Shown here one piece after another: positions 1,019 through 20,755 of a DNA stretch of 50,521 bases (positions within the stretch are counted from its first letter, which is position 1; each line of letters opens with the position of its first letter). A program made the position numbers and the translations under genes. This stretch comes from a virus. The notes under the pieces are model-generated. The model saw only the letters and a program-made list of their open reading frames with translations, ran no database searches and had not been told where the DNA came from. Location: the IMG/VR virus record IMGVR_UViG_3300011113_000657, positions 1-50,521 of that record, one strand, 5' to 3'.

Positions 1019-1033
1019 TAAAGAACATACAAT
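1005..1033 (+). promoter_or_regulatory. Sigma-70-like promoter, leaderless start for 1040 gene
   Basis: TTGACA (1005-1010), 17-base spacer, TACAAT (1028-1033). The first ATG, at 1034, touches the -10 box and could not be transcribed; the in-frame ATG at 1040 lies 6 bases after it and is the probable transcription and translation start. Confidence 0.75.
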
Positions 1034-1039
1034 ATGAAA

Positions 1040-1345: not shown

Positions 1346-2424
1346 GTTTAGCGTTTAACTTACCAATAAATTCAGTAAGTTTTGGTCAGATATCTACATT
1401 AATTCTTAGAGAATTATTTAACTCTAAGGCTAATGTAGGTATTTTACCTATTGGTAATATTGATTTTTCAACTCAAACAGATATAACTCAAGATTTTGTA
1501 AATTGGTTACAACAATCAATCAACCCAGCTCTAGAAACATATAATAGAAAAAATAAATTATTCAAGCTTTGGCATTTAAATGGTTCATTCGAAAGTTATT
1601 CTAATGAACAGATTTTACTTAGTTTTTATGAATTAGATCAACCAACTAAAGTAGAATTAAATACTGTAAAAAATAATAATAAAGTTTTATTTTCTTCTAA
1701 AGAAACGGTTGATTTATATAATCAATTTGGATGTAACAATGTAGAATATATTCCATTAGCATTCGATAAATATAATTTCAATACAATAGATAAAACATAT
1801 TTTACAGATGATAGAATAGTTTTCAATCTTGTTGGTAAACTTGAAAAAAGGAAGCATCATTTAAAGATTATACAACTTTGGGCAAATAAATTTGGTAACA
1901 ATAAAAAGTATACATTACAATGCTCTATTTTTAATCCATTTATGAAACCAGAAGATCAAGACTCTTTGATATCTCAAGCTTTAAATGGCAAAAGTTATTT
2001 TAATATTAATTTTTTACCATTCATGGCTCAGAATAAAATTTATAATGATTTTCTAAATAGTGGTAATATCGTAATAGGTATGAGCGGTGGCGAAGGTTGG
2101 GGATTACCAGAATTTCATTCTGTAGCTATGGGTAAACATTCAGTAATTATGAATGCTCATGGTTATAAATCTTGGGCAACTAAAGATAATAGTATTTTGA
2201 TTAATCCTAATTCTAAAATTGAATGTTATGATGGAATATTTTTCCATAAAGGAGCTCCTTACAATCAAGGCAATATCTATGATTTTAATGGTGACGACTT
2301 CATATCTGGTTGTGAAGAAGCGATTAAAAGGTCTGAATCTAATAAAATTAATAAAAATGGTTTAGAATTACAAAAAGTATTTTCATCAGAAAAATTATTA
2401 CAAAATGTACTTTCTCATTTATAG
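1342..2424 (+). CDS. GT-B fold glycosyltransferase (GT4-like)
   Basis: This 360-residue protein looks like a retaining GT-B glycosyltransferase. The C-terminal half starts with VFNLVGKLEKRKHH (near residues 161-175), the usual 'xxxGRlxxxKn' entry to the donor domain. It then has MSGGEGWGLPEFHSVAMGK (about 247-265), which corresponds to the E-x7-E donor-binding motif of GT4 enzymes (EGWGLPEFHSVAMG). The N-terminal acceptor domain is divergent. It is coupled by a 4-base overlap to the DUF736-like gene and followed after 3 bases by the FmdB-like gene. The sugar donor cannot be read from sequence. Confidence 0.75.
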   Translation: MSLAFNLPINSVSFGQISTLILRELFNSKANVGILPIGNIDFSTQTDITQDFVNWLQQSINPALETYNRKNKLFKLWHLNGSFESYSNEQILLSFYELDQPTKVELNTVKNNNKVLFSSKETVDLYNQFGCNNVEYIPLAFDKYNFNTIDKTYFTDDRIVFNLVGKLEKRKHHLKIIQLWANKFGNNKKYTLQCSIFNPFMKPEDQDSLISQALNGKSYFNINFLPFMAQNKIYNDFLNSGNIVIGMSGGEGWGLPEFHSVAMGKHSVIMNAHGYKSWATKDNSILINPNSKIECYDGIFFHKGAPYNQGNIYDFNGDDFISGCEEAIKRSESNKINKNGLELQKVFSSEKLLQNVLSHL

Positions 2425-2427
2425 TCT

Positions 2428-2778
2428 ATGCCTTTATATACTTATATAAATCCAAAAACAGATGAAACCATAGATATTCTTCAATCTGTGCATGATCAAC
2501 ATATTTACATAGATAAAAATGGATTAGAATGGAAAAGAGTATTTACTGTTCCTGAAGTTAATACTCAAGGAACACTTAAAGCTGACTGCTCTGCTAAAGA
2601 GTTTTCTGAATTTACTAAAAATAAAAAAGGTAATCTTGGAGATATGTTTGATCGAAGTTCTGAACTTTCAGAAAAAAGAAAAAAGATTTACGGTAAAGAT
2701 CCTGTAAAAGAAAAATATTTTAAAGATTGGTCTAAAAAACGCAAAGGTAAACTACACCCAAAAAGTCAATCAGATTAA
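2428..2778 (+). CDS. FmdB-like small protein without zinc cysteines
   Basis: The N-terminus MPLYTYINPKTDETIDILQS and the following V-D pattern resemble FmdB-family zinc-ribbon proteins (MPlYeY.C..CG..fe..qs..d.pl..CP.C). The two CxxC pairs that would hold zinc are absent; the only cysteine lies elsewhere, in KADCSAKE. The C-terminal half is basic and low in hydrophobic residues (Lys-rich from about residue 65), so nucleic-acid binding is possible but unproven. Short FmdB-like proteins occur in many tailed phages without a known role. It sits in the same run of genes as the glycosyltransferase before it. Confidence 0.5.
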   Translation: MPLYTYINPKTDETIDILQSVHDQHIYIDKNGLEWKRVFTVPEVNTQGTLKADCSAKEFSEFTKNKKGNLGDMFDRSSELSEKRKKIYGKDPVKEKYFKDWSKKRKGKLHPKSQSD

Positions 2779-2848
2779 ATTGTTTACAACTTCTAAGTTT
2801 TTTCTTTCTTATTTTATAAAATCGATGTAATATTATACTCATAGTGTT

Positions 2849-5104
2849 ATGAGTATAAAAGTAAAAAAAAGAAATGGTATAACTGAAAACTTTAATATAG
2901 AAAAAATTCACAGAGTAATAAATTGGGCAATTAAAGATTTATCTAATGTAAGTTTAACTGATGTTGAAATTAATGCAAAGATTAATATCAATGATGGCGT
3001 CACTACAAAAGAAATTCATAAACTTTTAATTGAATCTGCTGCGAATTTAATTTCTGTAGAAAAACCTAATTATCAATTTGTTGCTGGTCGTCTTTTAAAT
3101 TATCAATTAAGAAAAGATGTTTGGAAGGGAAAACATGCTCCTCGTTTATTAGAATTTATTAATCAAGGTTTAAAATATAAAATATATGATCCAATAATAT
3201 TTGAAAAATATGATGAAGATGAATTAAATAAAATGGGTGAATTTATTGATCATGAAAGAGATTATAATTTTACATATGCTGGCATCAAGCAACTTTGCGA
3301 TAAGTATCTTATTAAAGATCGTGTCACAGGTAAAATTTACGAAACTCCACAATTTGCTTATGTACTAATTGCTGCTTATGCTTTTATAAATTACCCAAAA
3401 GAAACAAGACTAAATTATATTCGTAAATTCTATGATGCTGTAAGTAAGCATAAAATAAATTTACCAACTCCTGTAATGGCTGGAGTAAGAACTCCAAGTA
3501 AAAATTATGCAAGTTGTTGTTTGATTGGAGTTGATGATTCTCGTGATAGTATTACTGCTAGTGCAACTGCAGTTAGTATGGCTACAGCTAGTAGATGTGG
3601 AATAGGTATTGATGTATCCAAAATTAGAGCTATAGGTTCTCCAATTAAAAATGGAGAAGTCGTTCATACTGGTTTAATTCCATTTCTTAAAATATATGAA
3701 AGTAGCGTAAAAGCATGGCAGCAAAATGGACTTAGAGGCGGAAGCGCAACCTGTAATATTCAATGGTGGCATTACGAAATTGAAGATATAGTAGTATTAA
3801 AAAATAATGCTGGAACAGATGATAATCGTGTTCGTAAACTTGATTATACAGTTGGAATGAGTAAACTTTTTTATGATAGAGTATTAAAAGACGAAGAAAT
3901 AACCCTATTTAATACTGCTGAAGTTCCAGAATTGTATGAAGCTTGGGGTACGAAAAACTTTGATAAAGTATACAAGGAATGTGAAAGTAAAAAGCTAAAA
4001 ATTAAAAAGAAAGTATCTGCTCGCAAATTATTCTCTTTAATAATCAAAGAAAGAGTGGAAACAGGTAGAATTTATATACTTAATGTTGATCATGCAAATG
4101 ATCATGGTGCATGGTTAGATAAAATCACGATGAGCAATTTATGTACTGAAGTAATTCATCCAACAATTCCTCTTAATGATTATCATGATAAAGATGGAGA
4201 AATTGGTATGTGTATTCTTTCGGCAGTAAATATGCTAGAAATTAAAAGCTGGCAAGATCTTGAAAAGACTTGCGATCTTATCGTAAGATTTCTTGATGAA
4301 ATCATTGAAATTCAAGATTACTTTAATGTTGCTGCTGAAAACTTTGCAAAAAAACGTCGTAGCCTTGGAATTGGTATTACAAATCTTGCAGCATATTTAG
4401 CTAAAAATGAATTGAAATATACTTCAGATAAGACTCTACCAGTATTGGATGAATGGATGGAGCATTTTCAATATTATCTTTTAAAGTCTAGTCTTGAATT
4501 AGCAAAAGAAAAAGGTAAGTGTGAAAAATTTGATAGAACAAAATATGCAAAAGGTATTTTACCAATTGATACTTATAAAGATAAAATTGATGAAATTTGT
4601 AAACGCAAATTATCTCTTGACTGGGAAAAACTAAGAAAAGATATAAAAGAATTTGGATTAAGACACTCTACATTATCATCTTGTATGCCATGTGAAAGCA
4701 GTTCTGTTATTCAATCTTCTACTAATGGAGTTGAACCTATTCGCAGTTTAATTACTTATAAAATGAGTAAAATGGGTAAACTTCCAGTATTAGTTCCAGG
4801 AATCGGTAAGTATGATGAAAACTATGAATTAGCTTATGATTTAAAGGATAATTCTGGTCTATTAAAGATTAATGCTATTATTCAAAAATATATTGATATG
4901 GCTATATCAACTAATGTATATTATAATTATTCTCATTATGAAAACAATGTTCTTCCAGATGCTAAAGTCATGAAAGAGATTATGCAAGCCTATTCTTTAG
5001 GTTTAATTAGCCTTTATTATAATAATACTGATGATGGAGATAAAGAGCAATTAATGAACCAAAAGGAAGACCGCGATTGTTCGTCTGGCGCGTGTAAACT
5101 ATAA
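2849..5104 (+). CDS. nrdA: Ribonucleoside-diphosphate reductase, class Ia alpha subunit
   Basis: This 751-residue protein reduces ribonucleotides to deoxyribonucleotides for phage DNA synthesis, with NrdB as radical donor. An ATP-cone occupies about residues 1-95. The catalytic residues are present: C223 in NYASCCLIG, N430-C432-E434 in SNLCTEVIHP, and C455 in GMCILSAVN, matching E. coli C225, N437, C439, E441 and C462. The C-terminus DCSSGACKL carries the C744/C749 shuttle pair, so it should be recharged by a thioredoxin or glutaredoxin, none of which is in this window. A TATACT box lies 9 bases before the ATG but I see no good -35 box. nrdB follows after 3 bases. The enzyme looks complete. 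Confidence 0.96.
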   Translation: MSIKVKKRNGITENFNIEKIHRVINWAIKDLSNVSLTDVEINAKININDGVTTKEIHKLLIESAANLISVEKPNYQFVAGRLLNYQLRKDVWKGKHAPRLLEFINQGLKYKIYDPIIFEKYDEDELNKMGEFIDHERDYNFTYAGIKQLCDKYLIKDRVTGKIYETPQFAYVLIAAYAFINYPKETRLNYIRKFYDAVSKHKINLPTPVMAGVRTPSKNYASCCLIGVDDSRDSITASATAVSMATASRCGIGIDVSKIRAIGSPIKNGEVVHTGLIPFLKIYESSVKAWQQNGLRGGSATCNIQWWHYEIEDIVVLKNNAGTDDNRVRKLDYTVGMSKLFYDRVLKDEEITLFNTAEVPELYEAWGTKNFDKVYKECESKKLKIKKKVSARKLFSLIIKERVETGRIYILNVDHANDHGAWLDKITMSNLCTEVIHPTIPLNDYHDKDGEIGMCILSAVNMLEIKSWQDLEKTCDLIVRFLDEIIEIQDYFNVAAENFAKKRRSLGIGITNLAAYLAKNELKYTSDKTLPVLDEWMEHFQYYLLKSSLELAKEKGKCEKFDRTKYAKGILPIDTYKDKIDEICKRKLSLDWEKLRKDIKEFGLRHSTLSSCMPCESSSVIQSSTNGVEPIRSLITYKMSKMGKLPVLVPGIGKYDENYELAYDLKDNSGLLKINAIIQKYIDMAISTNVYYNYSHYENNVLPDAKVMKEIMQAYSLGLISLYYNNTDDGDKEQLMNQKEDRDCSSGACKL

Positions 5105-5107
5105 CCC

Positions 5108-6172
5108 ATGAAAAGTGTTTTAAATTTAAAAAATATAGATCATACTAAACAACCATTATTCTTTGGAGAAGATCTTAATCTTCAAAGATATGATCGTTTT
5201 AAGTATCCTATATTTTTTGAGCTATTTAAAAAACAAGAAGAGTTTTTCTGGTGGCCTCACGAGATTGCTCTAAATAAAGATCGTAGCGATTATAAAGACC
5301 TTGCTGGCCAAGAAAGATTTGTATTTGATACTAATTTAAAATTTCAAACTCTTGGAGATAGTATGCTTTCAAGAAGTATTCATTCTCTTAAAGATTATGT
5401 TAGTAATCCAGAATTAGAAATTTGCATGAACACTTGGCAAAGATTTGAAGGTATTCACAGCTATTCTTATTCTTATTTACTCAATAATGTTCATCCAGAT
5501 GCTAGTAAATTTTTTGATAGTATCATGGAAGATAAGGAAATTGTATCTCGCGCTGAATTAATCAGAAATAATTTTGATAAAATTCTTGGTGATGATGACA
5601 AAAAAGATTTAAAACAAAAGATTTTTGATTGTATTCTTTCTGTTAATGTTATGGAAGGACTTGTATTCTATGTTAGTTTTGCTTGCTCTTTCTATTTTGG
5701 ATATCGCGGTAAGATGGAAGGTAATGCTAAGATTATTAAGTTTATTCAAAGAGATGAAGCCTTACATTTTGCAACTACTCAAAATTTAATTAAAATTCTT
5801 AAAGAAGAGGATAAAGAAGGATTTACATCAATAGTAAAAAAGAGCGAAGATAAAGTATATGCATTTTATGAGCAAGCAGCTAAAAATGAAATAGAATGGG
5901 CAGAATACTTGTTTAGTAAAGGTTCTCTACTAGGATTAAATGCTGAAGTCTTAGCTGGTTATTCTAAATGGCTTTGTGATGCTCGTTTGCGATCATTAGG
6001 ATATAAGAAAATTTTTAATCAAAAAGATAACCCAATAGGCGGATGGATGGACAGTTATCTAGATAGTAGTAAAGTACAATCTGCACCTCAAGAAGTAGAA
6101 TTGCAATCATATAAAATTGGCGCGAGAGATACTAATTTAAGTGATAAAGACCTCGAAAATATAGATTTATAA
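5108..6172 (+). CDS. nrdB: Ribonucleoside-diphosphate reductase, class Ia beta subunit
   Basis: This 354-residue ferritin-like protein makes the tyrosyl radical used by NrdA. The run RFEGIHSYSYSYLL gives iron ligands E114 and H117 and the radical-site tyrosine Y121, in the E-x2-H-x3-Y spacing of E. coli E115/H118/Y122. The second iron-ligand set is in FIQRDEALHF (E and H). The C-terminal tail normally docks onto NrdA; here it ends DLENIDL. The gene starts 3 bases after nrdA and is probably expressed with it. A GTGTAA box ends 10 bases before the ATG, but it lies in the conserved NrdA tail codons and may be chance. Confidence 0.96.
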   Translation: MKSVLNLKNIDHTKQPLFFGEDLNLQRYDRFKYPIFFELFKKQEEFFWWPHEIALNKDRSDYKDLAGQERFVFDTNLKFQTLGDSMLSRSIHSLKDYVSNPELEICMNTWQRFEGIHSYSYSYLLNNVHPDASKFFDSIMEDKEIVSRAELIRNNFDKILGDDDKKDLKQKIFDCILSVNVMEGLVFYVSFACSFYFGYRGKMEGNAKIIKFIQRDEALHFATTQNLIKILKEEDKEGFTSIVKKSEDKVYAFYEQAAKNEIEWAEYLFSKGSLLGLNAEVLAGYSKWLCDARLRSLGYKKIFNQKDNPIGGWMDSYLDSSKVQSAPQEVELQSYKIGARDTNLSDKDLENIDL

Positions 6173-6181
6173 GTAGTTACA

Positions 6182-6211
6182 TCTGTCATTTTACGTGCAA
6201 TAAAAGACAGA
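6182..6211 (+). promoter_or_regulatory. Hairpin just upstream of the endonuclease start codon
   Basis: TCTGTC (6182-6187) pairs with GACAGA (6206-6211). After a bulged A, TTTTA (6189-6193) pairs with TAAAA (6201-6205), leaving the 7-base loop CGTGCAA. The 11-bp stem ends 4 bases before the ATG at 6216. There is no following T-run, so I read it as a translation-blocking stem on nrdAB read-through mRNA, not as a terminator. Confidence 0.6.
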
Positions 6212-6215
6212 CATT

Positions 6216-7013
6216 ATGTACTATATATATGCTTATCTAGATCCAAGAAAAAAATATATTTTTCAAACAAATGAATTTATTTTTGAGGCAGAGCCTTTTT
6301 ATATTGGGAAAGGTAGTGGAAATAGAGCTTATGACCATTTACAATCAAATTTCTTTAAAAAATATAATAATCCATTTTATTCTAAAATTGCATCAATTAA
6401 AAAAGAAAAATTGCAACCAATTGTAAAAATATTAAAATATTTTGATAGTGAAAAAGAATCTTATGATAATGAAGAAAATTTAATAAAAGATATAGGTTCA
6501 AATTTTATAGATGAAATAAAAAATGGGCCACTATGCAATATTTGTTTATCAGCAAAACCACCAAATCACAAAGGAAAAACCTATAAACAAATATATGGAG
6601 AAGATAAATGGCTAAAGGAATATAATAAAAGAATAGAAAGACAGAGGGCTGTTGGTGGATATTTTAAAGGACATAAACACACTCGAAAAACTAAAAAGAT
6701 TTTATCTAAAAAAACTGCATTAAATAATAAATTAAGAGCGCTTCAAGGCGAGTATATTTCTAAGGAAGGAAGAAAAAGTATATCAGAAAAAGCTAAAAAA
6801 AGATTGAAAGAACATCCAGAGAAAATACCAAGAAAAGAATATAAAATAATTAATCCTACAGGAGAAATATTCATAATAAAAAAGAATATAAGCCTAAATG
6901 ATTTTTGTTTAAAATATAATTTATCTAAATCTGCTTTACAAAAGACTTTATATTTCGATACTCAAATAACTAGAGGACGAACTAAAGGATGGAAATTATA
7001 TCATTTGATTTAA
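6216..7013 (+). CDS. GIY-YIG homing-type endonuclease
   Basis: This 265-residue protein starts with a GIY-YIG nuclease domain: YIY at residues 3-5, FYIGKGSGNRAYDHL from residue 28 with the catalytic arginine R37, and an NEEN segment near 85 that would supply the metal-binding glutamate. A basic middle part (GGYFKGHKHTRKTKKILSKK, about 148-167) resembles the NUMOD3 DNA-binding repeat. The C-terminal 55 residues (EYKIINPTGE..., then a short helix-turn-helix) resemble NUMOD1. This is the structure of free-standing phage homing endonucleases, which nick or cut homologous DNA to spread themselves. No intron interrupts nrdB here. The gene is preceded by a hairpin that could keep its translation low. 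Confidence 0.85.
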   Translation: MYYIYAYLDPRKKYIFQTNEFIFEAEPFYIGKGSGNRAYDHLQSNFFKKYNNPFYSKIASIKKEKLQPIVKILKYFDSEKESYDNEENLIKDIGSNFIDEIKNGPLCNICLSAKPPNHKGKTYKQIYGEDKWLKEYNKRIERQRAVGGYFKGHKHTRKTKKILSKKTALNNKLRALQGEYISKEGRKSISEKAKKRLKEHPEKIPRKEYKIINPTGEIFIIKKNISLNDFCLKYNLSKSALQKTLYFDTQITRGRTKGWKLYHLI

Positions 7014-7034
7014 AGCTATAATATTTAATATTTA

Positions 7035-7042
7035 AAGTGTAA
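7035..7042 (+). promoter_or_regulatory. AAGTGTAA-class promoter
   Basis: AAGTGTAA ends 8 bases before the GTG start at 7051. No TTGACA-like -35 box is visible. It shares sequence and spacing with the boxes near 8516, 8984, 24717, 38921 and 40569. Confidence 0.6.
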
Positions 7043-7050
7043 ATATATGT

Positions 7051-7389
7051 GTGAATCTAGATATAACTACAGTATTTAATCTTGTCATAGGAGCGTTATC
7101 TTTCCTTGGTGGATGGCTTTTTACTAGAGTATTTTCTATATCTGATCGTCAAGAAAAGTTGATTAAAGATTTGAATGATAAAACCTTCAGTGATTTTATA
7201 GCCCTAAGAAAAGAAGTAGAGATTGAAAGTAGAAAACATCAACAAGAAATCGCAGATTTAGCACTAAAAGTAAGTACAACCTATGTTACTAAAGAATCAT
7301 TTGAGGCTTATTTTGATAGAATTGAAGCGAAGCTTGATCGTAATTTTGAAACTATACAACAATATTTAATGAATAAAAATAAAAATTAA
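7051..7389 (+). CDS. Small membrane-anchored coiled-coil protein
   Basis: This 112-residue protein has one hydrophobic segment at about residues 7-27 (VFNLVIGALSFLGGWLFTRV). The rest is a charged, heptad-like helical region (about 32-112). The GTG start is chosen because the nearby ATG at 7047 is in another frame and because an AAGTGTAA box lies 8 bases upstream. One N-terminal membrane segment plus a coiled coil is common among phage proteins of unknown role, and some holins and spanin-like proteins have this shape. No lysis enzyme is adjacent, so a lysis role is only a guess. Confidence 0.65.
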   Translation: MNLDITTVFNLVIGALSFLGGWLFTRVFSISDRQEKLIKDLNDKTFSDFIALRKEVEIESRKHQQEIADLALKVSTTYVTKESFEAYFDRIEAKLDRNFETIQQYLMNKNKN

Positions 7390-7403
7390 CTGTAATAGTT
7401 AAT

Positions 7404-7919
7404 GTGATTGTTTCAGAAAGAGATATTGATTTTTTTGCTAAGAAATTAGGTTTATCACCAGAAAAAACTTTTTTACTTATTCAAGATCCAGAATGTTTAC
7501 CAGAAATATTAAATAAAATTTGTGAAGATAATATAGATGGAATTGTAGATATAAGTTTTCCAGTATTTGCAGAAATAACAATAATAAAATATAGTAAAGA
7601 CTTAAAATACTCTTTTAAGGAAAAAGAATATATTTCTGAAGCAGTAGGTTTAAAATTTTATGATTTAATTGGAGAACCTATACTTAAAAAATCCATACTA
7701 GAATTTAAACACGATGAAGATACAGCGAAATCATTACTTGTATTTTTAGGATTTTTTTATAAAAATTTAAATAAACCAAGAAGAGCTTATGCTTCAGAAA
7801 ATACTTATTACAATATAGCCAAGAATGCTTTTGAAAATTCAGATAAAGAAGAAATATCTTATCATCTCAAAGACTGGATTAAAGTATTAAGAACTATACA
7901 TAATGAAGTTTGGTTCTAA
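7404..7919 (+). CDS. Hypothetical protein, 171 residues
   Basis: I do not recognise a family. The protein is soluble by composition, mostly alpha-helical, with a middle part rich in Lys and Glu and a Trp-containing C-terminus (HNEVWF). The GTG at 7404 is the plausible start; the ATG at 7402 overlaps it in a frame that stops at once. A 6-bp inverted repeat TTAACT/AGTTAA (7386-7391 and 7397-7402) sits directly before the start codon, and CTGTAA, a near match to the late-type box, lies 8 bases before it. It probably forms a short rightward unit with the membrane protein upstream. Confidence 0.6.
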   Translation: MIVSERDIDFFAKKLGLSPEKTFLLIQDPECLPEILNKICEDNIDGIVDISFPVFAEITIIKYSKDLKYSFKEKEYISEAVGLKFYDLIGEPILKKSILEFKHDEDTAKSLLVFLGFFYKNLNKPRRAYASENTYYNIAKNAFENSDKEEISYHLKDWIKVLRTIHNEVWF

Positions 7920-7920
7920 T

Positions 7921-8235
7921 ACGAAACCCTCAAATTATTTAACTTTTCTTTGATATCCAAAAGGGCTTTACCTCCAGATTCTGTATGTCTGAAGTTAAGT
8001 ATTATCAATCCAACTTTTCTTTTGACTCCAACTTTATCGTAATCTCAACGATAACGGGCCATCGCACTTACGGATCAGAGGTAGCTTCGATCACTACATT
8101 CTGCGATGCCTATAGCTACATTCCCTTCACAAGCCATATTATGTACAAACGAAGGTTTTAATAGTCGTCAGCCCTTGGGACGTTGCTATCTCAAGGATTG
8201 ATAGTTGATTATTTGACATCAACAAACTGCTCTAA
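7921..8235 (+). ncRNA. Candidate structured RNA of unknown class
   Basis: This stretch of about 315 bases has no good ORF and rises to about 40-47% GC in its 3' two thirds, well above its surroundings. It contains complementary segments that fit a folded RNA. TTATCGT/ACGATAA (8034-8040 with 8048-8054) is a perfect 7-bp hairpin. GGCCATCGCA (8057-8066) pairs with TGCGATGCC (8102-8110) with one bulge. GTAGCT (8081-8086) pairs with AGCTAC (8114-8119) to give an H-type pseudoknot. CCTTGGGA/TCTCAAGG (8173-8180 with 8189-8196) is an 8-bp hairpin with one G-U pair; alternatively AGCCCTTGG (8170-8178) pairs back to 7957-7967. GTTGAT/ATCAAC (8204-8209 with 8218-8223) closes the 3' end. It lies 308 bases before the tmRNA. 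Strand is inferred from neighbours. I see no RNase P, group I intron or tRNA signature. Confidence 0.55.
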
Positions 8236-8304
8236 TTGGAAGCTATGTTAAGTTATATACTATTATTTTTTTATTTTTTTGTCAAGTTTATTTATAATAT
8301 AGTA

Positions 8305-8514
8305 ATGGAAATAATTAAAAATAAAGCTAGATGGTCAGTTTACTCTAAAAAATGCATCAAGCATTATAATATTGATAATGATATTATTTCTGATGAACCT
8401 AATGAATATCCATGCATCGCTGTGCCTCAATTAATATCTGATGTAAATGGAGCAAGAATTAAATTCAATTTTATTTATAAAAAAGATTGTCAAAAACTAT
8501 TAAATAGTTTATAA
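8305..8514 (+). CDS. Small hypothetical protein, 69 residues
   Basis: I recognise no family. The chosen start gives a 69-residue basic protein (MEIIKNKARWSVYSKKC...). A TATAAT box (8293-8298) lies 6 bases before this ATG, the spacing used by leaderless genes elsewhere in the window, although no -35 box is evident. The frame stays open upstream to a TTG at 8236, which would add a 23-residue, almost wholly hydrophobic N-terminus. That extension is encoded by a T-rich tract and may be untranslated. Whether this is a membrane or a soluble protein therefore depends on the start. Confidence 0.45.
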   Translation: MEIIKNKARWSVYSKKCIKHYNIDNDIISDEPNEYPCIAVPQLISDVNGARIKFNFIYKKDCQKLLNSL

Positions 8515-8515
8515 T

Positions 8516-8521
8516 GTGTAA
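8516..8521 (+). promoter_or_regulatory. GTGTAA-class promoter upstream of the tmRNA
   Basis: The run AATGTGTAATTAGTATAAG contains the GTGTAA core (8516-8521) seen before virion genes. Initiation about 9-10 bases downstream would leave a leader of roughly 12-14 bases for removal from the tmRNA 5' end. TATAAG at 8527-8532 is a possible alternative -10 box. Confidence 0.45.
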
Positions 8522-8543
8522 TTAGTATAAGTTCTTTCTCATT

Positions 8544-8931
8544 GGGCCCGCACTGGTTTCGATTTTAGAGATCAGAATTAAAATGCAAGTGGAGGTTGAA
8601 TCGAGGACTCCTTAAAAAGTTTCAATTATATTAACTGCCAAAACAGCCAAATATAAAGGTCATATCTCTGCTAGAGTTTCTCTAGTTGAGGAGACCGCTT
8701 CTGTAGCTTAAGTTCTACAGCGTGACTACCTTGACACATCTATTGGATAGTTGCGTATTTAGATGTCTTTTCCTTTAAAGTTTTTTTATTCTTTATTGGT
8801 TCTGTATTCAAAATAAAATCGCTAAGTATGTTTGTTGTTTCTCTATATAAAGCTAAAAATAAAAACAACTAAACTTGTAGTATTTTAATTTAAATTTTTA
8901 AAAGACAGAGGTTCAACTCCTCTCGGGTCCA
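8544..8931 (+). ncRNA. ssrA: Transfer-messenger RNA (tmRNA)
   Basis: This is a complete one-piece tmRNA of about 388 bases, which rescues stalled ribosomes and tags the unfinished protein. GGGCCCG (8544-8550) pairs with CGGGTCC (8924-8930) and contains the G3-U70 pair that marks alanine acceptors. The T arm is AGAGG-TTCAACT-CCTCT just before it, and CTGGTTTCGAT follows the 5' stem as in known tmRNAs. Pseudoknot 1 is GGAG/CTCC (8591-8594, 8608-8611) with TTGAA/TTCAA (8596-8600, 8621-8625). The resume codon is GCC at 8637 and the tag frame runs 24 codons (begins AKTAKYKG, ends ETASVA) to TAA at 8709-8711. The stop lies in the loop of hairpin CTGTAG/CTACAG (8701-8706, 8715-8720), as in helix 5 of bacterial tmRNAs. 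CCA is not encoded, so host CCA addition is needed. Confidence 0.93.
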
Positions 8932-8983
8932 AGTAAACTAATTATATCCTAAATAAAATTAAAAATCTTAAAAAATACATTTT

Positions 8984-8991
8984 TTGTGTAA
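8984..8991 (+). promoter_or_regulatory. GTGTAA-class promoter for the 9001 gene
   Basis: The core GTGTAA (8986-8991) ends 9 bases before the ATG at 9001. The two bases before the core are TT instead of AA. No -35 box is visible at the usual distance. Confidence 0.6.
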
Positions 8992-9000
8992 TAATAATAT

Positions 9001-10371
9001 ATGGCTACAATATTTGAATATCAAACAAGCCCAAATTCTAATATATTTTATTACGCAGGGAGCCCCGCTGGGGAATGTCCAAATACTTATAGTCCTGCTA
9101 CAGTAAATTCAATATTTGAAGTAGGGAGTTGGACTCAACAAGTCAAAGTAGAATCAAAATGGTCATCAGCTCAAGGAGGCAAGATTGACTGGAGAATAAA
9201 ACTGATTGGTTCTCCGCGAGTTACTATAAATTCAGAAACAATTCCAAGTTTTAGTAGTGCATACAACAATGTAAAAGATGGATCTGCTCCAAGTATTGAC
9301 GCAAGTTTCGCAGCCTCAATCGAATCGAGCATATGTCAAATAGCAAATACTCAAAAGCAAAATATCACAAACAAATTAAAAGAATTTTTAGAAAAAGATA
9401 CTGTAGGAATAGGCATAATTAATGAATCAGTAGCAGAACAAGTTGGTAACATATTACAAATTAAAAGAACAAACACAGCTCAACCAGTATATCCTAATCC
9501 TTGGCCAACTAGCTGGACAGATCTTGGACAATTTACTGTTGGAGGAAAAATAAAAATTACACCAAATGTAACATGCAGTTCTCAAGATGATCACCCATTT
9601 AAAATAATAAAAAGTGATGGGGTTTTTAGTAATTGTCTTCCTGGGATTTCTCGAATAATATCTGATAATGTTATGATAAAGGTTACTGTAAATGGTACTC
9701 CTCCAGTTGTGCTTCATGATTATACTGATACAATAGATCTCTTTAATCAAAGATATGATAATCCATATATGGCTCAAGTTTACAATGAGCTTGTAAGAAG
9801 AGATGATACTAGAAATCAATGTTTAATGGCCCTTGGAAATCCAGAACTTTCACCAAGCGAAGTTATGAGATTACAAAAAGAGCTTTTTCAAGCAATGCAA
9901 TCAACTAGAGTGAGCGACAATAGAGGACATATTCTTTATGGTCTAAGTTCTAATGGGCCAGGTGTTGTTGGAGTTAATTTTGTGTTACCTATTGGAGATG
10001 GAGGAATACTATGGCACAAATGGAACGCTGTATTCTATTTGAATCCAAATAATTTTTTTGCAGAACTCAGTTTCTGGCAACAATATTTCGCTAGAGTAAG
10101 AGAATGGCAACAACAAGTAAGAATATTCAATCAAGCAGTGTTAAATAACAGCACTACTAATTTAGGCACAACAGGCGGCACAAATCTTCAATTGCCACCA
10201 GACAGTACGCCAGCACCCAACCCTGGATTTCCAATTCAAATTGATCTTCTACAACCTCCAGCGAATGGAGCAGGCTCAGGGAGTACAGATGGATTAGTAT
10301 TACCACAGCTTAATTTTGACGTTATAGAAATAGAAAATGATGTGATTATTTTTGATCCTCCAAAAGGATAA
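9001..10371 (+). CDS. Hypothetical protein, probable virion component
   Basis: This 456-residue protein matches no family I know. It has no signal peptide or membrane segment. The N-terminal 110 residues are Ser/Asn-rich and beta-like; a helical stretch near 105-150 is followed by more beta-like sequence with a few cysteines. Residues about 250-300 are helical and charged. The C-terminal 80 residues are Pro/Gly/Asn-rich (TPAPNPGFPIQ) and end in NFDVIEIENDVIIFDPPKG. The extended, low-charge composition and the late-type promoter suggest a structural or tail-associated role. The C-terminal motif recurs in the small ORF that follows. Confidence 0.6.
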   Translation: MATIFEYQTSPNSNIFYYAGSPAGECPNTYSPATVNSIFEVGSWTQQVKVESKWSSAQGGKIDWRIKLIGSPRVTINSETIPSFSSAYNNVKDGSAPSIDASFAASIESSICQIANTQKQNITNKLKEFLEKDTVGIGIINESVAEQVGNILQIKRTNTAQPVYPNPWPTSWTDLGQFTVGGKIKITPNVTCSSQDDHPFKIIKSDGVFSNCLPGISRIISDNVMIKVTVNGTPPVVLHDYTDTIDLFNQRYDNPYMAQVYNELVRRDDTRNQCLMALGNPELSPSEVMRLQKELFQAMQSTRVSDNRGHILYGLSSNGPGVVGVNFVLPIGDGGILWHKWNAVFYLNPNNFFAELSFWQQYFARVREWQQQVRIFNQAVLNNSTTNLGTTGGTNLQLPPDSTPAPNPGFPIQIDLLQPPANGAGSGSTDGLVLPQLNFDVIEIENDVIIFDPPKG

Positions 10372-10380
10372 TCTTTTATT

Positions 10381-10497
10381 ATGAATATTAAATGGGATTT
10401 GATACTTTTAGAAAATGATACAATTATATTCGGCCCTTTTCCAGAAAACCACGATTTCTCTCAATATAATCAAAATTACCAAAGAATAAAAAATTGA
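10381..10497 (+). CDS. 38-residue ORF related to the preceding gene's C-terminus
   Basis: This short ORF begins 9 bases after the preceding stop. Its first half reads NIKWDLILLENDTIIFGPFP. This aligns with NFDVIEIENDVIIFDPP at the end of the upstream protein (shared pattern D-[VL]-I-x-[IL]-END-x-IIF-x-P). The resemblance suggests a partial tandem duplication or a separately made peptide with the same docking motif. Its TGA stop is inside the -35 box of the next promoter. No own promoter or ribosome binding site is clear, so translation would depend on the gene before it. Confidence 0.5.
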   Translation: MNIKWDLILLENDTIIFGPFPENHDFSQYNQNYQRIKN

Positions 10498-10522
10498 TTT
10501 TATATATTAAATAATATATAAT
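10494..10522 (+). promoter_or_regulatory. Sigma-70-like promoter, leaderless TTG start
   Basis: TTGATT (10494-10499), 17-base spacer, TATAAT (10517-10522), then 6 bases to the TTG start at 10529. The -35 box contains the stop codon of the 38-residue ORF. Confidence 0.7.
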
Positions 10523-10528
10523 TTATTA

Positions 10529-11494
10529 TTGAACATCCTTTGGCCAGATATACATAAAAATCTTACTAAAAATATAGCAAAAGCATTTAATCTTTTGGGT
10601 CACACTTTAATTCTTCCTAGTTCAGATTATATACCAACAAATTTACCACCAAAACAATTTAATCAATGGGCATGGAGCACTGCATGGACACAAGAAAAGG
10701 TAGATCAAGAATTTAATACAAAAAATGTTAAAGTTTTAAACAAAGAACAAATACTAGACCTCAAACCAGAAGTTATTTTTATTCCATGTTTTGAAAGTCA
10801 ATTTGAAATTCTTAATGAAATTTGGCCTCATTTAAAAGACAAAAGTAAATTAGCTTGCTATAGCGGAAATGATTATTGGGACGGAGCTTATCCATTTTAT
10901 ATTATTAAAAATTATCTTTGCGCAGATTATACTGGATATATACTAGCAAATAAATATAAAATCAATCATCTTTATTATAAACCTTGGATAGACTACGATA
11001 GATGTACTTTTAATGGACCAACAGATGGAAATATAGTTGGAATTTATATTTCAGAATACGAAAAGAATTTTAATCAAGAATACAATATGAGTAAAGCATT
11101 ACAACAAATTACTCCATATATAGACTACCATTATCATACCAATAGCTCTCAAGAAGAACTAACAAAAACTTTAAAATCAAGTATAGCAACTCAACATATA
11201 AAACACCTTGAAGGTTATGGAATAGCTATTATAGAAAGTATGGCATGTGGTAAACCAGTATTTATGCATCGTAAAATGGCTCAAAATAAAAGCTTAATGA
11301 ATTGGAGTATTGAAAATGTAACAGCATTATTTTTTGAAAGTGAATATGAATATATTTCTAAATTAAAAGCTCTATACGAAAGCAAAGATTATAGATATTT
11401 TCTTCAAAATACAACAGCCCATGTTATTCGCCAAATTATAGATAATCAAAAAGAAACAGAAAAGCTTGGACACTTTATTAATAATCTAGTATAA
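10529..11494 (+). CDS. GT-B fold glycosyltransferase (GT4-like)
   Basis: This 321-residue protein starts MNILWPDIHKN and carries HLEGYGIAIIESMACGKPVF at about residues 225-244. This is the E-x7-E donor-binding motif of GT4 enzymes (EGYGIAIIE), followed by the usual 'aCGkPVf' turn. It should transfer an activated sugar. The TTG start is supported by the promoter 6 bases upstream and by the lack of an in-frame ATG near the N-terminus. It opens the 12-kb glycan island. A second promoter for the next gene overlaps its 3' end. Donor and acceptor are unknown. Confidence 0.75.
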   Translation: MNILWPDIHKNLTKNIAKAFNLLGHTLILPSSDYIPTNLPPKQFNQWAWSTAWTQEKVDQEFNTKNVKVLNKEQILDLKPEVIFIPCFESQFEILNEIWPHLKDKSKLACYSGNDYWDGAYPFYIIKNYLCADYTGYILANKYKINHLYYKPWIDYDRCTFNGPTDGNIVGIYISEYEKNFNQEYNMSKALQQITPYIDYHYHTNSSQEELTKTLKSSIATQHIKHLEGYGIAIIESMACGKPVFMHRKMAQNKSLMNWSIENVTALFFESEYEYISKLKALYESKDYRYFLQNTTAHVIRQIIDNQKETEKLGHFINNLV

Positions 11495-11495
11495 T
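11466..11495 (+). promoter_or_regulatory. Sigma-70-like promoter, leaderless GTG start
   Basis: TTGGAC (11466-11471), 18-base spacer, TATAAT (11490-11495), then 8 bases to the GTG start at 11504. The promoter overlaps the last codons and stop of the preceding gene. Confidence 0.7.
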
Positions 11496-11503
11496 TTCAC
11501 ATA

Positions 11504-12340
11504 GTGAAAATTTGGCTCTGTGGCATAACGCAAAATGAGAAGCGTAATATTGACGATATGACAAAAGATATATATCAATATTTTGATGGTTTAATTTTCG
11601 TAGATGGCGGCTCAACAGATGGCACATTAGAAGTATTAAATACAAGAAAAGGACAAGGAAAGATTATAAATAGAGAATGGTCAAATGACCATGATCTCCA
11701 AATGAATGGTTTTTTAAGGTCTAATATTATGCAAAATGGCGATTGGTTTGTTATAAGAGATAGTTGTGAAAGATTAAATGTAGACTGGGTTAAAAATTTA
11801 CGTAATTTTATAGAGAATTTCTTAGATAAAAATAAAGTAAATAGTTGCGTTGATAGACAAAAAGCTTTTCTTGTTAAATATTTTGATGATATGATATTTC
11901 AAGGTAGTCCACATTGGGGGTTGCAAGGCATGAGGCCAGGATATATTGATCTCTACGAGTACTATGGAAAGAATCAGCAATTATTCGCTTGGGAAGAGAG
12001 ACCATCTCAAAGAAAGCACTACATTGATAGTGACATGAAATATTATTTCACATATGGCAGATCAAACCATTGTGTTCTTCACTATTATAATAATGGAAAA
12101 ACCCCAGAAATATATCAGCAACAAGAAGGCATAAGACAAGCGTTTAGATCTTTTTGTGAAACTTTAGGAATAAAATTTAACTTAGATTCATTAAAAAATT
12201 ATTTACAAAATAATAGAATTGACGATAATATGAAATTTTTTATTAATAACGAAAGGTTGATAAGAAGATTTTATAGATTAAATATTTTGAATCACACATT
12301 AGAACAAATTGAATCTTCTGAAGAATGGAGATTAGCATGA
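11504..12340 (+). CDS. GT-A fold glycosyltransferase (GT2-like)
   Basis: This 278-residue protein has the start of a GT-A nucleotide-sugar-binding domain: WLCGITQNEKRNIDDM, then IFVDGGSTDGTLEVL near residues 31-45. DGGSTDGT is the typical GT2 motif. GDWFVIRDSCERLN (about 78-91) takes the place of the DxD-containing strand; only one acidic residue (RDSCE) is clear, so metal binding may be atypical. No membrane segment is seen. The gene has its own leaderless-type promoter and begins a run of glycan genes that overlap or nearly touch as far as 16440. Confidence 0.7.
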   Translation: MKIWLCGITQNEKRNIDDMTKDIYQYFDGLIFVDGGSTDGTLEVLNTRKGQGKIINREWSNDHDLQMNGFLRSNIMQNGDWFVIRDSCERLNVDWVKNLRNFIENFLDKNKVNSCVDRQKAFLVKYFDDMIFQGSPHWGLQGMRPGYIDLYEYYGKNQQLFAWEERPSQRKHYIDSDMKYYFTYGRSNHCVLHYYNNGKTPEIYQQQEGIRQAFRSFCETLGIKFNLDSLKNYLQNNRIDDNMKFFINNERLIRRFYRLNILNHTLEQIESSEEWRLA

Positions 12341-13236
12341 AGATAGTTGACTGTTTTATGTTTTTTAATGAAAAAGATATCGCTTACTTAAGAATAAAAG
12401 ATTTATATGATTCTGTAGATTATTTTGTAATAAACGAGTTGTCAACAACTCATAAAGGAATTCGAAGAAAAAGTATATTTTGGGAGGATAAAAGACTAAA
12501 TCAATTTAAAGATAAAATAAAATATGAATTCATAACTGTTGACAACAGATATGATTTACTATTTAATATTCATTTTAAAGATTCATCACATTTTGTAGGA
12601 AGTTGGGCAGAGCATGAACAGAGATTAAGATTAATGGATCAAATAAATAAATTAAATTTATCTGATGAAGATATTATTCTTTTTTCTGATTGCGACGAAG
12701 TGCCAAATAAAAATATCTTTAATCAGTTAAAAGATTATGAAACTGTGGCTCTTAATCAAATGTTCTTTGTTCATTATATTAATTTATATACAAATAAAAA
12801 TGTTACAGGAACGATTAGCGTAAAATATAAAAAAATAAATGAAATAAATGCTGGGACTTATAATCTTGGCTTGCAAATTTTAAGAAGATATAAAGATTAT
12901 ATTCCTAGGCTAGAGAATGGTGGATGGCATTATTCTTATATGGGTGGACCAAAAACAGTAAGCGAGAAAGTCGTGTCTATATATGAAGGAAATCCAGACT
13001 CTCCACTTAAAGATGAAGCAGAATCAGAGAAACTTATATTGGATACAATTAAAAATAATAAAAGCCCATTTTCTTCAGAGCAAATAAAAATCTTAAATTT
13101 AAAAAATAAAGAAGAAATACTTGAGTTTATTACTGCAAAAGCTGGCAATTGGATTAGAGATAAAAGCAAATGTCAAATATATCCAGATATTATAGAAAAA
13201 GAAAGGCAAAACCATAAAATACTCATATATGAATAA
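12337..13236 (+). CDS. GT17-family-like glycosyltransferase
   Basis: This 299-residue protein starts MKIVDCFMFFNEKDIAYLRI, the hallmark N-terminus of GT17 proteins (bisecting GlcNAc-transferase relatives: K.fDcf.ffNEldll.iRl.eL...Vd.fvi.Es). It then has DLYDSVDYFVINE and, near residue 110, EDIILFSDCDEVPN, a DCD metal-binding motif. It probably adds a sugar, in known relatives GlcNAc, to a glycan. I chose the ATG in the 4-base overlap with the previous stop; an ATG 12 bases earlier is also open. It overlaps the next gene by 8 bases. Confidence 0.75.
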   Translation: MKIVDCFMFFNEKDIAYLRIKDLYDSVDYFVINELSTTHKGIRRKSIFWEDKRLNQFKDKIKYEFITVDNRYDLLFNIHFKDSSHFVGSWAEHEQRLRLMDQINKLNLSDEDIILFSDCDEVPNKNIFNQLKDYETVALNQMFFVHYINLYTNKNVTGTISVKYKKINEINAGTYNLGLQILRRYKDYIPRLENGGWHYSYMGGPKTVSEKVVSIYEGNPDSPLKDEAESEKLILDTIKNNKSPFSSEQIKILNLKNKEEILEFITAKAGNWIRDKSKCQIYPDIIEKERQNHKILIYE

Positions 13237-13915
13237 TCCATTTGATTTTTTTGAAAGAATATACTGTATAAACTTACCCCATAGAGTCGATAAATGGCAA
13301 AAATGTCAAGAAGAATTTTCTAAAGTAAATATTTTAGAAAAGGTTATCAAATTTGATGGTATTCAAATTAACGGCTCATTTTATCATGTTAATGTTCGAG
13401 CCGCTGGATGTTTTTTATCTCATTTAGAAATTATAAACAAGTGCAAAGAAGATAACATTAAAAATGTTCTAATTCTAGAAGATGATATAGAGTTTCAGAA
13501 TGATCCTATCAATAACTTAAGATTATCTATTAATGATTTAAAAGATTTGGAATGGGATATCTTTTATTTAGGTATGAGTGTTACAGATGAAAAATTTAAA
13601 AATCCATTAGAAAGAATAAGCCCAAATCTTTTGAAAATAAATAGCGCATTAACAACTCATGCGATAGCATATAATAATATTGTTTATAACAAAATATTAG
13701 ATGTTGTGCCAAGGGGATTAAACTTTTTACCATGGATGCTACAAAATGAAAGTTTCGATGGATGGTTAATGAGGCATTTTTTACATAAAAACAATTGTTT
13801 TTGTACAAATGAATATTTAGGTGGTCAAAGAGATAGTTTTTCAGATATTAATTTAGGGGAAGCATCGCATGGGAAAGATATCATGAAAAATTTTTATAAA
13901 TTTAGACCACAATGA
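13229..13915 (+). CDS. GT25-family glycosyltransferase (LPS-type)
   Basis: This 228-residue protein shows the GT25 pattern of bacterial lipooligosaccharide galactosyltransferases: FERIYCINLPHRVDKWQKC at the N-terminus, then AAGCFLSHLEIINKCKEDN (about 53-71), then NVLILEDDIEFQNDP (about 76-90). The EDD motif is the likely metal site. A later D-G-W-L-M-R-H-F segment is typical of the C-terminal part. It overlaps both neighbours by a few bases, so it is translated as part of the glycan operon. Family members transfer galactose or related sugars; the actual donor is not readable. Confidence 0.8.
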   Translation: MNNPFDFFERIYCINLPHRVDKWQKCQEEFSKVNILEKVIKFDGIQINGSFYHVNVRAAGCFLSHLEIINKCKEDNIKNVLILEDDIEFQNDPINNLRLSINDLKDLEWDIFYLGMSVTDEKFKNPLERISPNLLKINSALTTHAIAYNNIVYNKILDVVPRGLNFLPWMLQNESFDGWLMRHFLHKNNCFCTNEYLGGQRDSFSDINLGEASHGKDIMKNFYKFRPQ

Positions 13916-14724
13916 TAACATTTAGAGATTTGGGTCATTGCGGAGCAATCGGTAATCAATTATTTCAATATGCCGCGCTTTATTCTGTAGGTAAAAAAAA
14001 TAACTTTCAAATAAAAATACCAGATACAAAAGATCATTTTGATAGTGGTACGGGAAGAGTTCAGCACTATTTTTTAAATTGTTTTAAAAATATATCAGCA
14101 GAAATATTAACAGATATAGATCATCAATCTATTCAATATAATACAAATTATGAAAAACCAATTTTTTATTATGAAGATCTATTTAATATAAAAGATTTTA
14201 CTAATATCAATGGATATTTTCAGTCTTATAAATATTTTAATGATATTAAATCTGATATTATCAATGAATTGACATTTAGGGATGAAGTTATAAATAATGT
14301 AAATATAAAATATAAATTTAAAATAAATGATTATTCTTCTATACATTTAAGATGTGGAGACTATTCTTATAGGCAAAATTATCATCCAATTATGGGTATA
14401 GAGTATTATGAAAAATCTTTTGATATATTAAAAGAAGAAAATTATTTAGTTTTTTCTGATACAATAGAATATGCAAAAAATCTCTTTCAAAAGTTTAAAA
14501 ATATAAATTTTACTTATATTGAAAATAATCATCCATTCGAAGACTTATATCTTATGTCAAATACAAAAAATAATATAATTGCGAACAGTACTTTTTCGTG
14601 GTGGGCAGCTTATTTGAATAAAAATAATCCTAGAATTATTGCCCCATCTAATTGGCTTGGTCCAGCTTATTACGGACAGTGGAATATCAAAGACTTGATA
14701 CCAAATGACTGGATTTTAATATGA
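13912..14724 (+). CDS. GT11-family alpha-1,2-fucosyltransferase
   Basis: This 270-residue protein is a clear GT11 enzyme. The N-terminus GAIGNQLFQYAALYS matches the conserved 'GglGNQmFqYA.a..la' motif, and IHLRCGDY at residues 144-151 is the HxRxGD GDP-fucose-binding motif. ANSTFSWWAAYLN near 223-235 and the later APSNW match the 'sNSSFSWWaAwLn...iiaP..W' motif. The family moves L-fucose from GDP-fucose to the 2-position of a galactose, making H-antigen-like ends. It overlaps the GT25 gene and the GT6 gene by 4 bases each. A GDP-mannose dehydratase for the donor path is encoded at 21706; a GDP-fucose synthase is not seen. Confidence 0.87.
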   Translation: MITFRDLGHCGAIGNQLFQYAALYSVGKKNNFQIKIPDTKDHFDSGTGRVQHYFLNCFKNISAEILTDIDHQSIQYNTNYEKPIFYYEDLFNIKDFTNINGYFQSYKYFNDIKSDIINELTFRDEVINNVNIKYKFKINDYSSIHLRCGDYSYRQNYHPIMGIEYYEKSFDILKEENYLVFSDTIEYAKNLFQKFKNINFTYIENNHPFEDLYLMSNTKNNIIANSTFSWWAAYLNKNNPRIIAPSNWLGPAYYGQWNIKDLIPNDWILI

Positions 14725-15461
14725 AAAATTTCTCGTCAGTAAAAATTTTTAGCATATCTACAAACAACTATAAATCTTTTAACTTATCTTTTATAAAATC
14801 ATTTACAGATTTTTTTCTTCCAGATCATAAGAAACAAATTTTTATTTTTACCGATGATATAAATCATGAAAGCTACAGAACTTTAACAGAAATTAAAACA
14901 TTTCAAATTAGACATGAACCCTGGCCATGGATAACATTAAAAAGATATGAGTATATAACTAATATGTTTGATTTAATAAGAGATGATGATCTATGTATAT
15001 TTGCAGATATTGATTTGGAAATAATTCAAATGATTAAAACTCTTGAAATTAATAGCTTCGCTGGAGTAATTCATCCAGGAAATCTTGTAAATCCATATAT
15101 GAACCAATTTTTAGAGCATAATAGTGATAGCTCTGCATATATAAATGAAAGCCTGATTCCAAAAAATTATAAATATATTCAAGGATGTTTATGGGGAGGA
15201 ATTGGAAAAAATTTTATTGATATGGTGCAGGTTTTAAAAGAAAATACTGAAAAAGATTTAAACAACAATATTGTTGCAAAATGGCATGATGAATCTCATT
15301 TAAATAAATTTTGTATAGAAAGGTTTAATAATTTCTCTTTCTTATCGTCATCTTATGCATATCCAGAAAATTGGAATTTACCAATAGATAAGATTATTGT
15401 GCATAAAGATAAAAATATGGAAATGTATCCAAGATTTGAGAGGCTTAATGTATCTAAATAA
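14721..15461 (+). CDS. GT6-family (histo-blood-group ABO-like) glycosyltransferase
   Basis: This 246-residue protein carries the full GT6 signature. FFLPDHKKQIFIFTD and PWPWITLKRYEYI come first, then FADIDLE with the metal-binding D96-x-D98. HPGNLVNPYMNQF and SDSSAYI follow, then YIQGCLWGG (from Y152) and WHDESHLNKF (W188-F197), where E191 matches the catalytic glutamate of human GTA/GTB (E303). GT6 enzymes add Gal or GalNAc in alpha-1,3 linkage to galactose, often fucosylated. There is no membrane anchor or stem, as in bacterial members. The positions that set A or B specificity in humans (266/268) are Q154 and C156, so the donor is open. It follows the fucosyltransferase with a 4-base overlap. 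Confidence 0.88.
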   Translation: MKNFSSVKIFSISTNNYKSFNLSFIKSFTDFFLPDHKKQIFIFTDDINHESYRTLTEIKTFQIRHEPWPWITLKRYEYITNMFDLIRDDDLCIFADIDLEIIQMIKTLEINSFAGVIHPGNLVNPYMNQFLEHNSDSSAYINESLIPKNYKYIQGCLWGGIGKNFIDMVQVLKENTEKDLNNNIVAKWHDESHLNKFCIERFNNFSFLSSSYAYPENWNLPIDKIIVHKDKNMEMYPRFERLNVSK

Positions 15462-16440
15462 ATATAATAAAATAATTATTTGGGGTTATCCGTTATATTC
15501 TCATACTCATTCTTATGTACATGAAGGATATTTTAGAGCTTTTAAACATATTGGTTTGGATACTTATTGGTTTCATGATGATGATTATCCTAAAGATTTT
15601 GATTTCTCAAATTGTCTATTTATTGGAGAGGGATTTGCAGATAGAAATATTCCATTAAATAAAACTAGTTGTTATTTTATTATGTATTGTCCATCTCCTA
15701 AAAAATATATTGAAGCGCAAGTAGGTAGATATATAGACGTAAGAATGGCAGCAAAAAATTTTAAAGACCATATTCATCAATATTCTTTAGAGGAAGAAAA
15801 TTCTATAAAAGTTGGGCATGGATGTTATTTTGAACCAGCAAAAAAATATAAAATTAAAATAATTAATAATTATCATAATTATGAAATTGATGATTTTGAT
15901 AAATATTATATTAGCTGGGCAACAAATCTATTACCAGAAGAATTTAATGAGGATTGGGTATATATTCCAAGAGAAAATAATATATATTTTTGTGGTAATA
16001 TTTCTAATGGAGGAGTATATGAAAATTATTCACAATTTCATGATTTTATAGAAGAATGCAAGATAAATAATATTAATTTTATTCATAATGATTCTTGGTC
16101 GAATCCATTAAGTAATCAAGAAATTATAAGAAAGACGCAAAATTCTTTTATGATGGTAGATATTAGAGGTCCAGAGCATCTAAAAAATGGGTTACTGACC
16201 TGCAGGATATCTAAAAATATTAGTTACGGACAACTAGGATTAACTAACTCGAAGGGTATCTATGAGAAATTAGAAGGAAATTGTTTATTAGAAGAATCTA
16301 CTAAAGATTTATTTTATAAAGGATTAGAGCAAAAACAAAACTTTGAATTAATTAAAAAACAAATGAAATATATTAGATGCAATCATACATATATAAATCG
16401 AATACAGAATATTTTAAATATTGCAAATGATAATATCTAA
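15448..16440 (+). CDS. Probable glycosyltransferase-like protein of unknown family
   Basis: This 330-residue protein begins MYLNKYNKIIIWGYPLYSHTHSYVHEGYFRAF, which looks like the N-terminal Rossmann strand of a GT-B enzyme. A later segment, NIYFCGNISNGG (about 180-190), looks like the start of a donor domain. I see no E-x7-E motif, and the family is not clear. I placed the start at the ATG overlapping the GT6 gene by 14 bases; the frame is open 51 bases further upstream but that part is shared with GT6 coding sequence. It is the last gene in the tightly overlapping run that starts at 11504. Confidence 0.55.
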   Translation: MYLNKYNKIIIWGYPLYSHTHSYVHEGYFRAFKHIGLDTYWFHDDDYPKDFDFSNCLFIGEGFADRNIPLNKTSCYFIMYCPSPKKYIEAQVGRYIDVRMAAKNFKDHIHQYSLEEENSIKVGHGCYFEPAKKYKIKIINNYHNYEIDDFDKYYISWATNLLPEEFNEDWVYIPRENNIYFCGNISNGGVYENYSQFHDFIEECKINNINFIHNDSWSNPLSNQEIIRKTQNSFMMVDIRGPEHLKNGLLTCRISKNISYGQLGLTNSKGIYEKLEGNCLLEESTKDLFYKGLEQKQNFELIKKQMKYIRCNHTYINRIQNILNIANDNI

Positions 16441-16481
16441 ATAAAATAGAATTATTTTTAACAAGTTTTATTATATTAAAT

Positions 16482-17090: not shown

Positions 17091-17091
17091 T

Positions 17092-17697: not shown

Positions 17698-17706
17698 TAA
17701 AAATAA

Positions 17707-17734: not shown

Positions 17735-17742
17735 ATTTAAAC

Positions 17743-18996: not shown

Positions 18997-19004
18997 TAGA
19001 TAAA

Positions 19005-20754: not shown

Positions 20755-20755
20755 A

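Follow-up and report, generated by a model that had tools for sequence, protein, structure and literature searches.

We identified a genuine one-piece tmRNA in a genome fragment of an uncultured phage; its anatomy is ordinary, and its tag peptide is unusual and conserved. The stretch of DNA that was analysed ("the window"), a linear virus record from IMG/VR, is 50,521 bases long, has 24-32% G+C in 2-kb steps and is a fragment from an uncultured phage clade that has no close INPHARED relative. We consider it likely that this is a working phage-encoded tmRNA that rescues ribosomes in infected cells and adds alanine plus a phage-specified tag of 24 residues.

The tmRNA gene and its genomic setting

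The window encodes ribonucleotide reductase, RecA-like, DnaB and ThyX proteins, a PD-(D/E)XK nuclease, DNA polymerase III alpha, a GIY-YIG protein and lambda-like tail proteins; a sigma70 region 2 match falls below the curated cut-off. No megablast match to bases 1-20000 was detected in 50,697 phage records. Among the matches listed, NrdA is at most 53% identical to that of cultured phages (the nearest relatives, at 53%, are from Mosig and HTVC008M) and the polymerase about 26-32%. A LEM-3-like GIY-YIG protein (6216-7013) lies between the ribonucleotide reductase genes and the tmRNA. The protein at 9001-10371, downstream of the tmRNA, has no confirmed relative in viral contigs, and by eye the long ORF block at 10529-22851 reads like glycosyltransferases and methyltransferases.

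The only gene called by ARAGORN in the window is a standard one-piece tmRNA of 388 nt at 8544-8931 on the plus strand, exactly the span in which the original prediction had placed a complete phage tmRNA. A covariance-model search agrees: Rfam RF00023 matches 8544-8932 over the full model (1-374) with 103.3 bits (E 2e-39; gathering score 47 bits), and this is the sole gathering-level Rfam match of the window. ARAGORN calls the standard gene and not the permuted two-piece form. The G3-U70 pair, pseudoknot 1, GCC resume codon and stop codon in a hairpin loop that had been described beforehand were all found in the sequence. The acceptor stem is GGGCCCG/CGGGTCC, the resume codon occupies 8637-8639 and the UAA stop 8709-8711. 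The 3' end reads GGTCCA-AGT, thus CCA is not encoded. The features of the locus are:

8487..8515, plus strand: predicted sigma70-type promoter of the tmRNA, TTGTCA (8487-8492), 17 nt, TATAAT (8510-8515); 11/12 consensus matches
8530..8543, plus strand: conserved 5' leader AGTTCTTTCTCATT, immediately preceding the mature 5' end; similar AGTTC.TT...ATT before related tmRNAs, including the 33-residue type
8544..8931, plus strand: tmRNA (ssrA) gene, one-piece, CCA not encoded (ARAGORN; Rfam RF00023)
8544..8550, plus strand: 5' strand of the acceptor stem with G3-U70, pairs with 8924-8930; four stem variants among relatives
8563..8590, plus strand: 5' strand of long helix P2, pairs within 8873-8903; the 26 pairs of helices 2 and 3 form in 96-100% of cells, and 8 of them show change on both sides
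8591..8625, plus strand: pseudoknot 1; stems GGAG/CTCC and TTGAA/TTCAA covary (helices 4 and 5)
8637..8711, plus strand: tag reading frame AKTAKYKGHISARVSLVEETASVA, GCC resume codon to UAA (ARAGORN; sequence; frame-specific purifying selection)
8701..8720, plus strand: helix 5, a hairpin with the tag stop codon in its loop; 100% of cells paired, 3/6 pairs changed on both sides (helix 6)
8736..8766, plus strand: pseudoknot 2 region, stem ACATCTA/TAGATGT; 100% of cells paired (helix 7)
8776..8818, plus strand: pseudoknot 3, stems 8776-8780/8791-8795 and 8784-8790/8812-8818; 81-87% paired (helices 8 and 9)
8834..8869, plus strand: pseudoknot 4 region, outer stem GTTGTTT/AAACAAC; 5/7 pairs changed on both sides (helix 10)
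8907..8923, plus strand: T arm; all 5 pairs changed on both sides (helix 11)

Relatives, tag types and allele exchange

IMG/VR holds many relatives of the window. On NrdB loci (L002-L080), ARAGORN found 13 one-piece tmRNAs whose tags are of the window's kind, plus one permuted tmRNA in L075; none was called on the polymerase loci (L081-L160), whose flanking sequence may stop short of the gene. With a pattern for the tag start, 73 stretches were recovered from IMG/VR. In total, L001-L232 yielded 82 ARAGORN tmRNA calls, which comprise 63 distinct tmRNAs of the window's kind once the permuted one is dropped; about 60 further distinct sequences carry 24-residue tags, with ends -SVA or -IAA. Of the 72 new pattern loci, five had no ARAGORN call, though two of these lie on contigs whose Rfam score exceeds the cut-off. 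Among 18 large related contigs, 15 carry an Rfam tmRNA match above cut-off and three carry none; in eight NrdB relatives that had no ARAGORN match, Rfam detected no tmRNA. The tmRNA is therefore not universal among the relatives, all of which are fragments. One of these, G001 (171,916 bases), encodes a PurZ-like 2-aminoadenylosuccinate synthetase and a dehydrogenase-family protein (L244:2314-3306 and L244:525-1625), hinting that its DNA may contain modified purines.

The tags fall into three types. Type A, to which the window belongs, follows AKTAKYKGH.S.R..L.E...SVA (19 peptides, 24 residues), and type B is roughly AK.AKLKGSFSLRVSH....LIAA (6 peptides, 24 residues). Type C was found in G002 and G008, whose tmRNAs encode an acidic tag of 33 residues, AEDNFDMAMSLEEADAILAAAGFVDTEATLELV or a close variant of it, in both cases behind a GTTCTTT-like leader. 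Type C tags end -LELV. A type C pattern search returned 22 stretches (L253-L274), with a frame of 33 residues in 21 and of 34 in one. RF00023 matches all 12 of the type C tmRNAs tested, at 85-107 bits. ARAGORN calls three of the 22 and misses 19, so counts of phage tmRNAs that are based on ARAGORN may be too low. A tRNA gene precedes the type C tmRNA of L253, L266 and L267 at a distance of no more than about 15 nt.

We aligned 47 of the 63 distinct tmRNAs of types A and B. Over the 79 assigned base pairs, 93.7% of cells are paired, compared with 34.8-53.0% when the structure is slid, a comparison that favours the true register since the window sequence itself supplied the pairs. Changes on both sides of a pair occur in 272 cells, against a shuffled mean of 78.4 (0/500 shuffles as high), and the covariation score is 0.249 versus 0.125 in shuffles. 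The count of further pair types is unremarkable (79 versus 74.6; 33/500 shuffles reach 79). In eight alignment rows the acceptor is out of register by one base, and the figures for helix 1 are lower as a result; the acceptor was therefore also counted without the alignment: G3-U70 occurs in 47/47 tmRNAs and the stem is fully paired in 46/47, with one mismatch in L186. Both stems of pseudoknots 1 and 3 have support (81-99% paired), and pseudoknots 2 and 4 have one assigned stem each; the pseudoknot 2 stem shows little covariation because it is almost invariant. The tmRNA fold is not a chance product.

The 24-codon frame that had been read from the window is correct and is the one under purifying selection: the type A value of pN/pS is 0.20 for this frame versus 1.81 and 0.78 for the other two. 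For the tmRNAs gathered by tag-start patterns (one for types A and B, one for C), the search itself partly selected for conserved first 8-9 codons; the 13 one-piece tmRNAs on NrdB loci were found without a tag pattern. Restricted to codons beyond the search pattern, pN/pS is 0.30 for type A and 0.27 for type C, in each case with 0/200 column shuffles as low, and 0.42 for type B, which has few sequences and is not significant (24/200 shuffles as low). Thus the peptide, and not the RNA alone, is conserved in types A and C. Across the 19 type A peptides the terminal SVA, R13, L16 and E18 are invariant. The window tag is basic in its first half, as predicted (net charge +3; +2 overall), and ends Ser-Val-Ala, lacking the C-terminal Ala-Ala of the E. 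coli-type ssrA degron. Fragments of the tag were not found elsewhere in the collected loci, except for one chance-like frame match in L032.

An NrdB tree was built from 42 of the 79 loci plus the window. Type C falls outside a supported clade (100/94) that holds types A and B. The sister of the window is L002 (99%), whose contig has a type A tag. Type B occurs at two places inside type A, at close range, and well-supported branches force two changes. Tag alleles have thus been swapped between close relatives. The tmRNAs of L055, L198 and L204, all in the alignment, join a type A tag to a longer 3' half resembling that of type B and read as if recombined inside the tmRNA gene; that of L206 is of similar length.

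Proposed function and alternative explanations

Transcription would start from the tmRNA's own predicted promoter, which is the best site in 8200-9100, where 6 sites were found versus 5.3 in shuffles (no excess). Related tmRNAs have TATAAT/TGTAATAT-like boxes upstream at a similar distance. The predicted promoter is of a sigma70-like and not of a specifically late type. AGTTCTTT occurs 4 times in the window, counted over both strands, and is no general promoter motif there. The leader at 8530-8543 is probably the start of the pre-tmRNA. Host RNase P would remove it to form the 5' end, and host enzymes would also add CCA. The original prediction had also remarked on leaderless mRNAs, and the window lends this support: a TATAAT-like hexamer begins 9-18 nt upstream of 17 of 24 hand-picked starts versus 22% of random ATGs, and an SD-like motif precedes only 7 of 40 hand-picked starts (11% of random 20-mers). 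ORF starts such as 9001, 11504 and 39712 (minus strand) appear to have leaderless-type promoters.

With its G3-U70 identity pair, the RNA should be charged with alanine. A search that recovers SmpB from 10 of 14 control genomes detected none in 19 phage records, the window included; delivery to the ribosome would therefore probably rely on host SmpB. Although the contigs searched are fragments, the tmRNA most probably acts together with SmpB and proteases of the host. Ribosomes stuck on broken or nonstop mRNAs would then be released during infection, with addition of alanine and the 24-residue tag. In tmRNA biology an uncoded alanine from the charged tmRNA precedes the encoded tag, and the added peptide would hence be one residue longer than 24.

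Because selection maintains the tag peptide down to its final three residues, ribosome release is not all that counts; the tagged product matters too. Most likely, and in our view somewhat more probably than all else taken together, tagged products are still sent to a protease or adaptor of the host, in a manner that fits that host. It is possible, at a lower level of confidence, that it spares or retargets tagged products, and we think it unlikely that it is fixed for translation or RNA reasons. Tentatively, the clade may be a widespread one that uses its tmRNA as an exchangeable tag-writing cassette, in which long conserved tags (24 residues with -SVA, 24 with -IAA, 33 and acidic with -LELV) serve a function other than that of an Ala-Ala degron, for example by retargeting to another protease or adaptor, or by sparing or marking proteins during infection.

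How far the tag departs from a degron bears on these readings. In E. coli, the terminal Ala-Ala is reported as the key element for ClpXP, and replacing either Ala raises KM (PMC7652416). Type A (-SVA) and type C (-LELV) lack it and do not fit, whereas type B (-IAA) has it. A tag that is no degron at all, and that shields rescued proteins, moves them elsewhere or diverts the tagging and degradation pathway of the host, would account for these endings, for the unusual length and charge and for the conserved peptide. We nevertheless regard this as doubtful: the type B end is degron-like, the tag of phage G ends -QVA, and ClpP was found in none of the 16 phage records searched, which are fragments (a weak AAA_2 match, below cut-off, occurs in seven of them, and one of these, in G001, overlaps a clamp-loader-like ORF).

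The tag might instead copy the long tag of an unsequenced host, in which case the phage would only top up host tmRNA and nothing about it would be phage-specific. We searched 84,980 bacterial and archaeal species genomes for the exact 24-residue pattern and found it in no tmRNA; its four genome matches (three Prevotella, one Clostridia MAG) have no ARAGORN tmRNA. In answer to the earlier question of whether the tag matches that of a host, no tmRNA in these genomes shares the exact pattern. Capture of a host ssrA unchanged likewise finds no counterpart among the tmRNAs of these genomes, with the proviso that the host may be unsequenced. A close full-length counterpart to the tRNA-Ser of a relative was found neither in 296 genomes of the phylum of the Prevotella match (31 with a match) nor in 199 of that of the Clostridia match (24 with a match). 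The best tRNA-Ser match is 77% among longer alignments, with short pieces of 21-39 nt at 82-100%. The host clade was therefore not found among these genomes, which leaves room for an unsequenced host, and three tag types could mirror three hosts. For the terminase and a neighbouring protein of the 171,916-base relative, cultured matches are distant or none. Overall we think a host copy improbable, as the two close-range occurrences of type B inside type A would need repeated host jumps.

That the gene is a captured passenger or an inhibitory decoy, given that tmRNA genes are common integration sites and that the truncated, tag-less DS6A form inhibits tmRNA action (PMC4131195, PMC11915505), is very improbable and we reject both readings because fold and peptide are under selection, the gene being full length with covarying structure, an intact frame and peptide-level selection over dozens of contigs, and its leader and upstream boxes being conserved.

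Comparison with known tmRNAs

Most tmRNA tags are short peptides with a terminal protease signal. Long tags that are selected and swapped among close relatives thus provide a natural test of what a tag does beyond ribosome release, and the same clade a natural test of how phages reprogram host protein quality control. Bacterial tags of more than 20 residues exist (Chlamydia, Mycoplasma), differing in sequence and setting. Among 22 bacterial tmRNA loci used as a yardstick, 21 tags have 9-10 residues and one frame has 14; the commonest length is given as 10 residues (PMC11915505).

Phage tmRNAs are themselves well documented. One survey counts them in 402 of 18,146 phage genomes (given as 2.3%) and describes two-piece forms from aquatic phages; the roles it proposes are maintaining the host machinery or tagging host proteins (PMC9004378). 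Phages with ssrA, mycobacteriophages among them, are listed in PMC4131195, and tmRNA and SmpB are reported from huge phages (PMC7162821). A search of titles and abstract beginnings, with preprints and most subscription papers outside its scope, returned no description of long phage tmRNA tags. Among 50,697 phage records the window tmRNA gave partial matches in 12 records, none convincing (at most 15% of the query, E >= 0.1), and its tag gave no match.

Compared with the bacterial one-piece tmRNA (RF00023), that of the window is alike in its tRNA-like domain with G3-U70, its pseudoknot architecture as far as stems were assigned, its resume codon and its helix 5 stop loop, and differs in being a phage gene with a 24-residue tag, an -SVA end and no encoded CCA. 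The pelagiphage and methylophage tmRNAs (Melnitz, Mosig) are from aquatic phages, as that of the window, possibly a freshwater virus, may be; they are permuted two-piece forms (tag GEDNFALAA in Mosig), whereas the window tmRNA is one-piece. Streptomyces phage Jay2Jay and Bacillus phage G likewise encode a one-piece tmRNA with its own tag, and these tags are shorter (ANSNVAFALAA in Jay2Jay; AKLNITNNELQVA in phage G). The SVA ending stressed in the original prediction is present and is less special than was implied, given the -QVA of phage G and the -IAA or -LELV of the window's kin. As a -VA end has this precedent, tag length is the clearer difference. What is new relative to the phage tmRNAs already known is that the tags are long, conserved and exchangeable, and mostly lack the usual Ala-Ala end.
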